The position numbers and the translations under genes were made by a program. The notes beneath the pieces were generated by a model, which was not told where the DNA came from, did no database searches, and was given only the letters and a program-made list of their open reading frames with translations. Source: Deroplatys truncata (taxonomy: Eukaryota > Arthropoda > Insecta > Mantodea > Mantidae). From it: a DNA stretch of 64,000 nucleotides. Numbering within the stretch: position 1 is the first letter of the stretch; each line of letters starts with the position of its first letter. The stretch is from the NCBI GenBank assembly GCA_030765065.1, contig CM060975.1, forward strand, positions 105,978,094 to 106,042,093, read 5' to 3'. Below, in pieces: positions 1,747 to 23,500 of this stretch.

Positions 1747-3051
1747 CGAGGGCATATTTTCAACCTCCAATCCTTCTGCTATGTGACTAGACAAGCATGA
1801 GGTGGATCCGAGCACTGTGCTACTGCCCCACCATAATATCTGCCGCCAAGTTCAATACGTCAGTTGGAACAGAGCTACAGGCACTTCAACATGGCCGGTA
1901 TCATTGATTCTCATGCAAGTTGCGAAGTATCATTCATTTTTTACAGGCAGAAGGGAATAGTGAAGCAGAAATTCATTGCAAAATGAACTGTTTATCATGC
2001 AAACTGTATAAGTGAGGGTATTGTGAGCAAATGGTGTAGAAAATTTAAAGAAGGCCGAACTGATGTTCATGATGAAGGTGGACAAAGATGCAAGTATGTC
2101 ACTAGTGAAGACCTTGTTCAGCGAGTTGATCAAATGGTTCGAGAGAGGTTGAGATTTACTATCGATAAAGTTGTCTGTGGATTTTCTGGACATTTCAAGG
2201 TCAGCCCTGTACACGATTTTTACAGAACACATAGGCTATCGAAAACTTTATGCACGCTGGGTTCCCAAAAAGCTGTCTGAGGAACACTAACCACAGCGCA
2301 TGATGTCACCTTTTCCTTTCTCACACATTACGCTGATGAAGGGGAAGAGTTTTTGAACTCCATTGTGACAGGGATGAAACATAGATTCTTTACGACAATC
2401 CAGAATCGAAAGAACAATCCAAACAATGGATGCACACATATACACACATTCTCCCCCCTACAAAAAGCACAAACAAACTTTCAACAACATGAAGACCATG
2501 GCTACCGTTTTCTGGGATCAGAAAGGTGTGCTGCTCGTGGAGTTAATGGACTTAGGGATTACCATCATTGAAACTGTGTACTGTCAGACATTACATCACC
2601 TGCAGAGAGCCATTCAAAACAAAAGAAGAGGTATGCTGTCATCTGGAATGGTTTACTTTCATTCATGACAACCCAAAACCGCCTATTGCTGTGATAACCC
2701 AATGGCTGCTTACTCAATTTCATTGGGAAGTGTTTGATCACCTGGCTACAGCCCAGATCTAGCGCTGAGTGACTTTCATTTTTTTCAGCAGCTGAAGAAA
2801 GGTCTGGGAGGGCAGCGCTTCTGCAAACGGGGAACTTCAACACGCTGTGAAGACCTATCCCTGCTAGCAGCAACCTTCTATGAAGAGGGTATTGGATAGC
2901 TTGTCTATCAAAATGAGAAATGTCTTAATCTTTGCGGTGACTATGTGGAAAAGTAACTGTGACTGTACACAATGACTCTGGTAATAAAACCATTTTGTAA
3001 TCACATTTGTCTTTGTAATGCCCCATCGGAGGTTGAAAAAAAAAATAGTCC
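1747..3051 (+). mobile_element. Decayed full-length mariner (DD34D) inserted in the dispersed repeat
   Basis: 1305 bp between TA dinucleotides (1745-1746 and 3052-3053), with diverged inverted ends sharing TTTTCAACCTCC. The transposase is on the + strand in pieces: 'WCRKFKEGRTDVHDEGGQ' (2027-2088), 'LVQRVDQMVRE' (about 2112-2145), 'KTMATVFWDQKGVLLVELMD' (2494-2553) and 'AIQNKRRGMLSSG' (about 2612). The helix-turn-helix and much of the DDE core are recognisable. The GDETW block holding the first catalytic Asp is destroyed by a one-base loss near 2375, while the HDN block (about 2665) and a diverged 'SPDLALSDFHF' (about 2757) survive. Several frameshifts and stops make it dead. Confidence 0.88.
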
Positions 3052-3605: not shown

Positions 3606-6600
3606 CTGTAACATAAAAGTTTTAACATTAATTTCATTTCACTAAATAATATACTTTAAAAGCAGAAGTTTCTGTCAACTTCCTTAGTTGCATCTAGATG
3701 ATTGAAACAGAACTGACTTCATGCAAACTTAGTGCTACCAAAGTAGACAGACCTTCAAACTTAATACAGGGCTGTCATTTTATGGCGCAGCCTGGATTGT
3801 ATACATACTCAGAGTGCTGACTACTATGCTGGGGCTTTTCCATTCTAATAAAACTCCTGCATTACATATTCATGAGTAATAACACATGCACTATGGGAAG
3901 TACTAACTTTGTTTTAAGTGGTGTTCATCTGCATTGAGACAGTCCTGGTGTTTCTCGTCATGAAGTTGTAATTCATGAACAATTGTCACTCTGTAGGGTT
4001 TCAATTTTAAAAGTTTAACAGCTGTATGAACAGAGGGTTTTGAAACACCCACTTGCTGTGCAATACATCTTAGAGACTTCTTTGGAGAGCATCCGAAAGA
4101 TGCACCAAATTTGTAATTGTTTCCTCTGTTAGCATCTTAGGTTTAGCGATCCTGTTATCCTAAACTTATTAACCAGACATCTGACAGTATCTCTATTTGG
4201 AACTGGAATACCAGGAATTGTCTCCTGAAATTGTCTACACATATGTCTACATGAATAGCTTTTACATATGTATTGTACATAAAAAGTCTTTGTTCAAGTG
4301 TGAATTTTTCTGTAGACATTTCAGGGGACTAATAATAAGAAAAGAGCAGCAACAATACAAAGAATACTCTGAAGTAATTAACACACAACACAGAAGTTTG
4401 AATAAGCTTTCATTTTTTAAATGCACAATGAACAAACTTTAGTCTTTACACATGAACAGAAGGCAAAAACTGAAGTTGACATTGACAACCGATAAAGCAT
4501 AGACTTGAGTGGTCCAATCACCACTAATGAGCTAGTGGCACATACCTATATCACTGCAGTGCAAGCAAATTACACATACACTTCATCGTGGCCAGGCCAC
4601 AAACCAATCACTCTGTACAAAAACGTAGAACAGCTGAAACTTAAGAAAGAAAAAGGAAATAAAAACATAAAAAAATAATAGGCATTATTTAAAGGTGAGT
4701 CGGAATTGTTACACTAACATCACTTAAGTTTACTCACTTAACATGTTTCGGGAAACCGTTGTTCCCATCCTCAGAAGGTTAATTCAGTCGACTGAATTAA
4801 CCTTCTGAGGATGGGAACAACGGTTTCCCGAAACATGTTAAGTGAGTAAACTTAAGTGATGTTAGTGTAACAATTCCGACTCACCTTTAAATAAATTCAA
4901 TACACATCACTATTTCTAGCTTCTTTTCATTACAATATCAACGTAATAGGCATTATTCCATATGCGAGTAGGAGCTACAAAATGTTAATATAGTGGCCAT
5001 GGCAGACATCTTGGCAGGAATTCTCCAATGTGATTAATGGAATGCCACAAAGCAATGAAAATGTAGCTGAAGTGGATCATTCGAGTTTAGTCATGCAAAT
5101 CCTACAGCTACGCCCTGTTGTCACTGCTGCATTCCTCTCCTTCTAAAAAGCATGCTCCCTACCTGCATATGGAATGATGGTCAAAATAATAAAATAAATG
5201 AATGAGAAAAGAGAAAATTCCTTGGCAAGACATTAGGTACAGGAGTAATGTTAGAATTTTGGTCTGTGAGCACTAATTTAAATAAATGTTTTGAAGACAA
5301 TCTTTACAACCTGTGGCTTCAAAGCGGGCATTTCCCAAAGTGATTCTCCTGTTAGTTTGTTCCAGAAATATGGTCGGTTTTCTCGTTTACTCCAAAACTT
5401 TCGCCAGCCTTGTTGAAGTAGTTCTGGTGGTAAATCATGCTCCATAAACACACCCTGAGGTACCCCCTAGAAACAGAAATGACTAATTTAAAAAATAATA
5501 AACTTTATCATTTCTTAGACTATACAGATATAAAATTACTTTAAAGCCAATTTCATATTCTGCAGTATTAATAAAATCAAAATACAGAAATTCATAAGCA
5601 CTTTATAATGCCCACTACATCATGAGGTTCTGCTTTATTACTCCTTTGGGGGAAACCTTTTCAGAAGTAGACAACTTCCCCACATAACGAAGAACAAAAC
5701 AAGACAAGGAAGGGTTAAAGGGATAAGAGAATAATTTAGATTGAGGATAATGGTATGGGAAAAATTGCATCACCACATGGACATCATGGTTCAAATTACC
5801 CATCAATTGTTTGGTAATTTTGCATAACTTTAGCTAATCAGAAAAGGAAATGATAAATTTGTTTAGTTTCTCTACCACCTAACTACAGGAAATATTTTAT
5901 TCCACTTCAAAATTAAACATTGAGTTGTCCTGACCAGAATTAGACATTCTGAGGCTTCTGAATAAATAAAAATTTAGAAAAAGCTATGTACATGCCTGCA
6001 GGTCTGTGAACAACATAACTTAAACATGAAAAATCGGATAAATATCAAGCTTGGTTACTTTCCTAATAAAATATAGCACTTAAAATTTCTGTGAATAGCT
6101 GGTACACCATGAGATAGAACAAAATCTTAGAAGAAAGAACAAAAGAAAAGAAAAAAGAAAGAAAGAAAAAAAACAGTAAATTTCATTAAAGCACACTGTT
6201 TATATGAAATAAATCTTTTTGCAGCATTAACAATTTCCAGGATATTTGTTGCTATATGTGTGTATTTTCCAATAGTTTTAATTTTTTGAAATGCTAAGAC
6301 CCCATTCATTTTTTTTTCTTTCATGTCATCCAAAAAGTATGGGATTTCAAAACCAAAAAATAGCAACCTGCTTTTTTAAAGATCAACTAATTTTTCAGCC
6401 TTCTGCATCTCCCTTGCGACTACAACAAAATTTAAAATGAAACCATTTCTACAAATGCTTATCTTGATTAACATGAAACAAATAGAAAAATAAGTTTTTG
6501 CAAGAATAGTTTGCAGCAGAGATACAAAATAGATGAAGGCGGTTAGGGAAAGTGATGTGAATGTAACAGGCTATTCAGAGAAAATTCAAGATATACATTT

Positions 6601-20537: not shown

Positions 20538-23500
20538 TGTTTTCTTTTTTTATTATTATTTATCATCATCTATGGGCTCCCCAGACTGTAACATATTTTC
20601 TAAATTTATTTTTTTATTTATATAGATACTCCATATCTGGCTCTTTGATTTTTAGGCACTCCACTATAAAAATGCATGAAAGATCCTGCATTTCTGCGCC
20701 ATTTGCTTCCTCTTTTGTTTCTGATATCATAATATCTTGGTTTCTAATCTCTAATTCTTCACATATCTCTCCACATCTATTACATATTCCCTGTAAGTTC
20801 CATGTTCCAATTGTCATCATCTGTTTCCATAGCCTTTTTTTAATATTCTTAAATCTGTCTGGCTGTAATTTCTTGGGTTTTATCTAAAAAAGAAAAAAAT
20901 TAGAAATGGGATTATAAAAGAAAGTGTGAATGTTCAAAGTTCAATTTTAGATTTTATTCAACAAAAACAATTAGAATGGTATGGACATGCTAAAAAAATG
21001 GAAGATGAAAAATTACCCAAAGAATAATGGAATGGATGCCCCTCTAGTTCCTTGAATCCACGTGTAATGCCGTCTTCCTTTTCTCCTCCTCTATTGTGGC
21101 ATTGGGAAATTGGAGAAGATTTATGGTCCAACAGGCAAGAATGGAGAAAAGTGATAAGAAATGTTAAAAACTGTAGTCTTGGGTGCCGGAAAAATGTTTG
21201 TTATTAACCAGGTTAATACCAAAAAAAAGTTAAATTAATGCTGGAATAATAAGTGCTGAACAGATCAGTAAATTCTGACAAGATCTAAAGACTGAAAAAT
21301 GGAATTCTATTCTGGCCTGCAAGTGAATGACAAGTTTAACGCATTCTTAAAAATCTGATGTGTTGCATTCACATGACTTTCTCTGTCCTCTGTCGCTTAT
21401 TAGTGGGTATAGAAGTTATTCTTATGAGCGTTTCCTTTCCGAAAATGCCTGTATTACACATTTTATAGATACAAAGGGAATAGCCATTGTCAAATGTTAA
21501 GAACTGGATACTATGTTCCTGCTCTTTGCGTGCAATCACGATAAACAACTGAATATTGAAAGGACTGTGAAAAGAATGACAAAGTATTGAAGAATTTAAA
21601 CCATTAATAACATATCTTGGAATTGGCTGATCTCACAAAAGAGGTTATTTGAAATAAATTGTGTGTTTTAAAGAGATCTACATGTTTTGTGTAGTATGTT
21701 TTTGTCTATCACTTAACGTTTACAAGTTATACAAGATTATACAAAATTCCTTCAGAATGAAGTGGACTTTACAGGCTATTCCTAGAAAATTCAAGATATA
21801 CATTCTATTTGTCATATAAATATTTTTAATATACAGTATTTTAATCAAAATCGTTGAAGTCTTACGTAGAAATCTACACAGTTTAAACCTTATGGTCAAA
21901 ATATTGCACAATTATACATAATAGTGGGCAAAAATCATAGACTATGTTACAACTTCCAACCTTATTTTGAATTGTATAGTACTCAAAATTTTTAAAACCC
22001 ACCCGTACTCTATTTTTAGTTTAGTACCACAGAACAGGTATACCATACAGAATTTGCTTGCATCTCCATTAAAAGACAAAATTCTACCAGAACAAAAATC
22101 AGGCATCTACTTAACTGTTTAAATTGTAATCTGGTTTATGTAGACAAAACAAAAAAACATTGAAACCAGAAGAAAGGAACACTTTGTTGCATTACCAGCA
22201 TGCAAATCAAAAATCAACTAACAAATCATTTTTGAATACGAACCATCACATCAAGCCAAAAGTGACTTTACTGAAAAACTTCAGTATGTCCGTTGAATTA
22301 AAAATTTGGGAAAAACATCCACATCATACAAAAGGAAGGAACGTGTAATGAATTTTGAAGTCCCACCCTTAAACCAGCTCAGTAGTTTCATAATAAGGAA
22401 TCCAGATGATGCCACGTCTGCAACCAACACCAGCAACAATGTCTCTAGTGTTGCCAGTTGGACCAAGGCTGAAGATAGGAGTAATTGCTTTTGAAACATG
22501 TACCAAAACCTAATTTTAAGAAAGTGAAATTAATATCAGTAATCGACTCAACAATCTTTCAAGTTATTATTTTGCTTCACTGTTCCCAACTCCTAACTTC
22601 CAATTTGATATATGTAATACTTATGCCAATACCTTTTAATAATCCTTAGGTAAGAATGAAAGTTTTGTTGTATTTCTACTGTATGTTGTAATTGAGTGCA
22701 TTACCAGTGTATGCTAAATAATTATATAAAGAAAGAAAATTGTACCAGTTACAATGCTCTATTTGGAGTCAGCTAAACATTCCGTATAGCTTCACTCACC
22801 AGTTTAATTGGCAGAATATTTTTTTACGAGCATTCACTCACACCCTAGCCTGCATGTGTCTGTCGGAGTTGATTTTTGCTGAGAGAATGCATAGTTATGG
22901 GGTTTCCTGCTTCCGGATTATCGAAATTCATTAGCTTATGTTTGAATATTTTTATTTATACCTTCTTCCATGTGTTTAGCCCTTTGTGTATTACAGCTCA
23001 TTTCATTAATTTTATTTCATTTTCTATTTCATGGTTTTTGGTCCAAAAATGTGTTGCAAATGCTGATTTTCCATTTGTTTGCATTTTATGTTTCTCGCTA
23101 ATGAATTATTATATTTCAGAAGCAGAAAACCCTATTTTCAGGTTCATCATCAAACCACCAAAGGCTACATGTTGGTCAGCAACAATCAACTCAGTCAGTA
23201 TGCAGCTGAGGATGCAAGCAGACACTCATGAAATATGTTCCGCTAACTAAACTTGTGAGTGAAGCTATGAGAGTGTAATTGATTCCAATAACGCACTATA
23301 TCTAACAGTGTATGTTGCTTCACAACGTGTGATTCCGTCGTAATATGATCGAGAGAAAATTGTGTCCAGTGTAGCATCAGAAATTAGGACATCCAGTGTT
23401 TTGTAGTTTTGTGAAGATTACTTTTCTCAGTGGTTACGTATGTGTCATTTCCAAAATGTTTAATTCAGTAACCTGGATTTGGGGAATCTCAGCAATTTTG

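Follow-up and report, generated by a model that had tools for sequence, protein, structure and literature searches.

Inverted Penelope repeats are already known. Rotifer Penelope-like elements (PLEs) have inverted pseudo-long terminal repeats (pLTRs), one of which may carry a tail, and target duplications of 8-10 bp, and in 2013 self-priming on an antisense template was proposed as the origin of these repeats and tails (PMC3846280). A curation guide treats inverted pLTRs as a peculiarity of individual copies (PMC8969392). A PLE protein was seen in vitro to cut both strands of the target and to extend them, with no strand difference observed, and to start at two internal sites of the RNA that bound the tail; this 2024 study left the later steps for validation (PMC11167929). 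Hammerhead ribozymes of PLEs are usually minimal, without helix III (PMC6155905). The present analysis concerns a palindrome in a stretch of 64,000 nucleotides (the window) from Deroplatys truncata (assembly GCA_030765065.1, contig CM060975.1, positions 105,978,094 to 106,042,093).

The palindrome arm is almost certainly the 5' region of an endonuclease-bearing PLE with thousands of copies, and the object in the window is a new family of a known kind of element. The whole palindrome is probably a 5'-truncated PLE insertion, in which both strands of the target were cut, each 3' end primed a cDNA, and the cDNAs were end-joined. Thousands of young copies in one genome form a natural experiment that separates the models of its origin. 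What separates them is that each insertion has one tail, that the dyad of the target is centred on the duplication, that the inner ends match and that most variants are shared.

The palindrome and its element family

The arms of the inverted repeat, 4685-4789 and 4790-4894, are 105 nt each, 100% complementary and have 0 nt between them, which far exceeds chance expectation. A 14-bp direct repeat TAATAGGCATTATT brackets the palindrome at 4676-4689 and 4944-4957. This anatomy (105-bp arms, no mismatch, no spacer, 14-bp repeat) had been given by the original prediction and was confirmed at 4676-4957. When compared with other copies, the element-derived part of the arms is 101 nt each (4685-4785 and 4794-4894), and the centre looks spacer-free because the 8-nt filler AGTCGACT happens to be palindromic. 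Since 5 nt at the end of the left repeat also fit the left arm, the window duplication is 9-14 bp long; the mode of the family is 12 bp. In the element numbering used here, the A of the putative first ATG is +1 and the preceding base is 0. Loci fetched from the genome are numbered from L001, and the window copy is locus L005. RT stands for reverse transcriptase. The features of the window copy are as follows:

4676..4689, + strand: target-site duplication, left copy of the 14-bp repeat; the last 5 nt are assignable to the arm too
4685..4785, - strand (sense strand): putative first cDNA arm, tail-less, element -16 to +84 (L005)
4786..4793, no strand: junction filler AGTCGACT, palindromic, 8 nt
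4794..4942, + strand: putative second cDNA arm with tail, element -16 to +132 (L005)
4895..4944, + strand: tail of about 50 nt, on the right arm only, between the putative RT start positions near +85 and near +132
4802..4842, + strand: hammerhead-ribozyme-like motif CUUCUGAGGA ... GAAACAUGUUAAG, read from the sequence, with ATG at 4811 and a predicted cut after 4839
left arm, - strand: mirror copy of the hammerhead-like motif, read from the sequence
4944..4957, + strand: target-site duplication, right copy of the 14-bp repeat

The genome searched comprises 4.29 Gb in 818 contigs. At least 71 matches to the window arm were found (40 of 88 candidates scored), and the other palindromic copies and single-arm copies that the original prediction proposed to look for were both among them. 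The 40 distinct loci from this search (42 less two second fetches) hold a single arm in eight cases and an inverted pair in most others. Loci L001-L008 are seven places, as L005 and L006 are both the window, and have a tail of about 50 nt on one side only, differing flanks, their own short duplications and slightly varying centres. A 46-nt pattern over the tail-body border had 6,021 genome matches at up to 3 mismatches and a 39-nt body pattern had 11,075, with zero genome matches for the reversed control patterns of tail and body.

In many copies, a common sequence upstream of the palindrome centre ends with GGGCCAGTC|GA..TTAACC, which is the end of an open reading frame (ORF), and the ORFs of longer copies read straight into the arm sequence. 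The ORF at L072:3-1418 encodes RVT_1 (E 2.2e-9) and GIY-YIG (E 5.3e-7) domains, both above the Pfam cut-offs; reverse transcriptase and GIY-YIG endonuclease are thus seen in one ORF of a longer family copy, while the window copy is without an ORF. A PDB sequence search with a piece of the PLE protein gave nothing up to E 0.1. A second ORF piece was found 3' of the tail in L075. The first ATG runs into a stop after 12 codons, and GTGAGT at that point suggests a possible intron. Target-site duplications at AT-rich targets are present in the family.

Just downstream of the ORF end lies CUUCUGAGGAUGGGAACAACGGUUUCCCGAAACAUGUUAAG, with a hammerhead-like core; the final A of this core also begins the ATG. 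On reading, core motif and geometry agree with the PLE hammerheads described in PMC11167929 and PMC6155905. The source RNA probably carries this putative hammerhead-like ribozyme. Searches of Rfam with the palindrome and with one arm plus tail gave only matches below gathering scores, which for the palindrome are due to its self-complementarity, and the single-arm RNA folds no better than shuffled sequences. The palindrome centre GUC|GAC was also considered as a hammerhead cleavage site; this idea was dropped because AGTC is ordinary upstream sequence at the ORF end in longer copies.

Two other identities were rejected. A miniature inverted-repeat transposable element (MITE) has fixed symmetric terminal inverted repeats and a constant interior, whereas the ends here are asymmetric, with a one-sided tail, and the centres vary. 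Metazoan retrozymes are tandem head-to-tail units, whereas most of the fetched loci hold inverted pairs or copies linked to an ORF.

A diverged PLE subfamily (65-79% identity) with other sequence upstream of the hammerhead-like core was found in L050 and L051 (about 1800-2510). Several loci are more complex. L066, L100, L127, L132 and L135 carry a third or fourth arm, nested or tandem, and the pair of L132 sits inside another PLE copy. The PLE copies of L047, L048 and L050 are in or beside arrays of a tandem repeat of about 82 bp. The window itself also carries diverged PLE-body fragments at 22027-22276 (+, 66% identity) and 23039-23089 (-, 81% identity).

Outer ends, target and inner ends of the paired insertions

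Altogether 81 head-to-head pairs were parsed, with L006, L023 and L067 dropped as second fetches of other loci. Loci L001-L042 were found via the window arm and are therefore biased to similar centres. The positional sample was chosen by position and not by centre: it started from 100 listed exact tail-pattern places, all on contig C1, of which 92 are covered by 90 loci (L043-L132). Inner-end and tail-state counts come from L043 onward or from the tail-blind set introduced below, while duplications, outer ends, variants and targets were counted in L001-L042 as well as from L043 onward. The positional sample was reduced from 48 to 45 pairs by leaving out L091, L100 and L127, and the outer-end and target counts cover 74 pairs (without L014, L033, L034, L066, L091, L100 and L127).

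The outer ends of these 74 pairs fall into two groups, +83..+92 for tail-less arms and +124..+134 for arms with a tail, the reference itself extending no further than +134. One tailed and one tail-less arm are present in 44 of the 45 pairs of the positional sample, and two tails in the remaining pair (L066). Since this sample had been chosen by the tail pattern, a second set was chosen by the body pattern alone. In this tail-blind set, 100 listed exact body-pattern places gave 21 pairs within 400 bp, 18 of them simple and three complex (L066, L100 and L135). All 18 simple pairs have one tail and one tail-less arm, which has a two-sided probability of 7.6e-6 if every arm had an even chance of carrying a tail. 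The states were tallied from parsed loci, with 2 of the 18 pairs resting on match lists alone, where a diverged tail would escape. Two-tail pairs were seen in L014, L066 and L127, and in all three one arm continues past the tail into the ORF. Among short resolved insertions of the family, 45 are head-to-head pairs and five are single arms with a duplication; 27 further single arms of the positional sample extend beyond -400 and lie outside this single-arm count.

Direct repeats at the outer ends were scored in 78 of the 81 pairs (L033, L034 and L091 left out). They are at least 8 bp long in 71 pairs, exactly 12 bp in 45, and 12-15 bp, the length range that the original prediction had proposed to look for, in 67. 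Shuffled partners had a mean repeat of 5.2 bp, with 8 bp or more in 3.7%. The prediction of a discrete insertion with a retroposon-like target duplication, and not of a local inverted duplication, is borne out. The target motif was derived from those 46 of the 74 pairs that have a duplication of exactly 12 bp. Their consensus, TAAAYA-N10-TRTTTA, is dyad-symmetric, with AAYA on the left in 25 of 46 sites (background 0.0185), TRTT on the right in 29 (background 0.0206) and both in 14. The base-frequency table correlates with its own reverse complement at r = 0.92 when centred on the duplication and at 0.36 or less at 20 other centres. A symmetric, dimeric enzyme that cuts both strands would leave a dyad target of this kind.

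The inner ends of paired arms are correlated (Spearman 0.82, 45 pairs). Their median difference is 3 nt versus 42 nt in permuted pairs, and none of 5,000 permutations was as low. Out of 90 inner ends, 32 are at -25 to -12, 30 at +26 to +40, and two in the range from -4 to +25. The start of the RNA may lie at the first group. The second group follows the predicted hammerhead cut at +29/+30, and a palindrome at +37 to +40 would help joining. In seven of 14 long-arm pairs with both inner ends visible, the ends agree within 45 nt (L064 counted with L063).

The junctions of the 45 pairs comprise 20 overlaps, one blunt joint and 24 fillers. The 8-nt palindrome ACTTAAGT lies within the overlaps at L051, L061 and L098; by means of such palindromes, two identical cDNAs can anneal to each other. 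Fillers copied from a template are a pattern seen in error-prone end joining. In the long fillers of L058, L060, L070, L071 and L081, the match to the element beat all 60 shuffles. Arm lengths and fillers were tested in 44 pairs (L066 also left out), where no sign was seen of which arm is made first, with the tailed arm longer in nine pairs, the tail-less arm longer in 12 and both within 3 nt in 23. The perfect palindrome of the window is a rare symmetric outcome of a common reaction.

Sequence variants were compared in 74 of the 81 pairs (without L033, L034, L091, L100, L127 and two pairs with a short overlap). At 18 listed variable columns, the minor base is common to both arms 69 times and confined to a single arm 20 times. 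The two arms of a pair diverge by 1.4%, permuted partners by 3.2% (43 pairs; the lowest of 500 permutations was 2.2%). The arms are identical over their shared part in 35 of 74 pairs, so the copies are young. The recent origin proposed for the window palindrome fits this number, and gene conversion, the other cause then offered for its undiverged arms, is not needed. In our reading of the variants, both cDNAs were copied either from a single RNA or from RNAs that share their end and derive from one locus or subfamily; for a single twice-copied RNA the chances seem about even.

Proposed mechanism and alternative explanations

Priming from two ends is likely. A PLE protein, probably a dimer, would make one cut in each strand of an AT-rich site with dyad symmetry, the cuts lying 12 bp apart, and produce two 3' ends. 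Each of them would prime reverse transcription inside one short element RNA, or inside two RNAs with the same 5' end, with one start near +132 giving the arm with a tail and the other near +85 giving the tail-less arm. Both cDNAs would run to the 5' end of the RNA, which is near -20 in the window copy (a possible transcription start) and near or after +30 in other copies (a possible hammerhead cut). The cDNA ends would then be joined by microhomology or filler into head-to-head inverted arms, and fill-in of the overhangs would make the 12-bp duplication. In this scheme, the PLE identity of the family, the two outer-end positions, the one-tail rule, the duplication, the dyad target, the correlated inner ends, the mostly shared variants and the junction types are seen in the sequences themselves, whereas cutting by a dimer, double copying of one RNA, the transcription start, cleavage by the ribozyme and the pathway of joining are inferred from them. 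A stricter version, paired integration, in which a dimeric RT-endonuclease cuts each strand of the dyad target and makes two copies of a single RNA, each internal start site being used exactly once, may be right or wrong with equal probability.

Several points speak against this mechanism or weaken its support. Inner ends of the second group cluster most densely at +37 to +40 and not at the predicted cut at +30. Rfam gave no hammerhead match with the palindrome or with one arm plus tail, and the hammerhead is a putative one, read from the sequence. The other seven of the 14 long-arm pairs disagree at their inner ends, and the templating of fillers is modest (mean longest match 7.5 nt versus 5.5 nt in shuffles, 21 fillers). 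Among the 20 minor bases confined to a single arm, seven are at three columns beside the junction and ten at two columns where the minor base is never shared; the latter ten are probably later mutations. An arm's own partner is its best or tied-best match in 36 of 74 cases and uniquely the best in two, and the great similarity of the copies gives this test a low resolution. The tail-blind set and the positional sample overlap, with ten of the 18 tail-blind pairs in both, and L127, with multiple arms and two tails, is one of the three loci left out of the 45. The single arms with a duplication (L085, L093, L104, L105 and L109) and the seven of 78 pairs with a repeat below 8 bp (L014, L039, L062, L066, L088, L100 and L127) also depart from the scheme. 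For the window copy itself, the target is a poor match to the right half of the motif.

By self-priming (snap-back), a cDNA or antisense RNA would fold back at its end and copy itself, and the hairpin would then be inserted. For rotifer PLEs this was put forward from palindromes at inverted junctions (PMC3846280), and under it, too, inner ends should match and variants should be shared; an opened hairpin loop would also resemble the window's 8-nt palindromic centre. The tails are not explained in this way, however, because copying of the tail-less arm cannot yield a tail, copying of the tailed arm would not be expected to end at the other start position, and every simple tail-blind pair has one arm of each kind. 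As the duplications at the outer ends and the dyad target also disagree with it, and spacer-free overlaps at 8-nt palindromes leave no loop for folding back, self-priming is considered unlikely. Still less probable is that the palindrome itself is mobile, as a MITE- or retrozyme-like miniature element copied whole, since arm lengths and centres vary between copies and the outer ends lie at RT start positions. The 36-nt centre of the window was found at only two places in the genome at up to one mismatch (the window itself and C1:94026671). Some centres do recur, and a sister 32-nt centre with AGTC only has 31 matches at up to one mismatch, but the extra 4 nt of the recurring centre are sometimes on the tailed and other times on the tail-less arm (L001, L004).

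Perfect spacer-free palindromes are a familiar class of artefacts of assembly or fold-back sequencing. Here the tail is on one side only, a target duplication is present, and the like architecture recurs at dozens of unlinked sites with differing flanks and mostly their own duplications, so the probability of an artefact is practically negligible. The original prediction suggested a retro-copied head-to-head dimer of a small ribozyme-bearing RNA. Its ribozyme part stands as far as the motif is concerned; the dimer RNA is neither supported nor needed, since two outer start positions, the duplication, variable junctions and the dyad target speak for the joining of two cDNAs at the target site. 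Insertion of two end-joined cDNAs at a doubly cut target is thus retained as the preferred explanation.

If the stricter version, paired integration, is true, inverted pLTRs with an optional tail, long puzzling, would be its ordinary product, and palindromes like that of the window would arise when the RNA is short. The family also shows that near-perfect palindromes arise again and again in a large eukaryotic genome, a point of interest for genome instability and for hairpin RNA.

In the neighbourhood of the palindrome, an exon with a WW domain (Pfam E 3.8e-10) was identified at 5278-5466 of the window on the - strand, the closest PDB entry being PCIF1, 2jx8 (E 1.5e-14). The palindrome is about 320 bp beyond this exon, possibly in an intron of a PCIF1 orthologue. 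Two ORFs, at 2023-2280 of the window and at 2234-2884 (-) of L072, we take to resemble mariner-type transposases.

Comparison with known systems

No report of the one-tail rule, of a dyad target centred on the duplication or of one RNA copied twice was found in the literature searched, most subscription journals being outside the search. Metazoan retrozymes have a small hammerhead-bearing retroelement RNA, as is probable for the window family, but they are described as tandem repeats with type I hammerheads, whereas the unit in the window is inverted and part of an ORF-bearing PLE (PMC7229834).

EN+ PLEs with inverted pLTRs, both families of the rotifer Adineta vaga and the typical Penelope structure of flies and fish, resemble the window family in head-to-head pLTR arms, a short tail on one arm, a duplication and an ORF with GIY-YIG and RT (PMC3846280). 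In the Deroplatys family, in contrast, an insert can consist of just the two arms without an intervening ORF, the tail is about 47 nt long and not 31, the duplication is typically 12 bp and not 8-10, and thousands of copies permit statistics.

PAc, a Poseidon element of Anolis carolinensis, has its ORF start at hammerhead stem II with C3 and G8 before the ATG, as the sequence suggests for the window family too, and two internal RT start sites bounding the tail; cutting and extension of both strands in vitro is reported for PAc (PMC11167929). The putative starts are near +85 and +132 in the window family, whereas 111-118 bp is most common in PAc, and the predicted cut lies after 29 nt from the A of the ATG, compared with 26 bp in PAc (PMC11167929).
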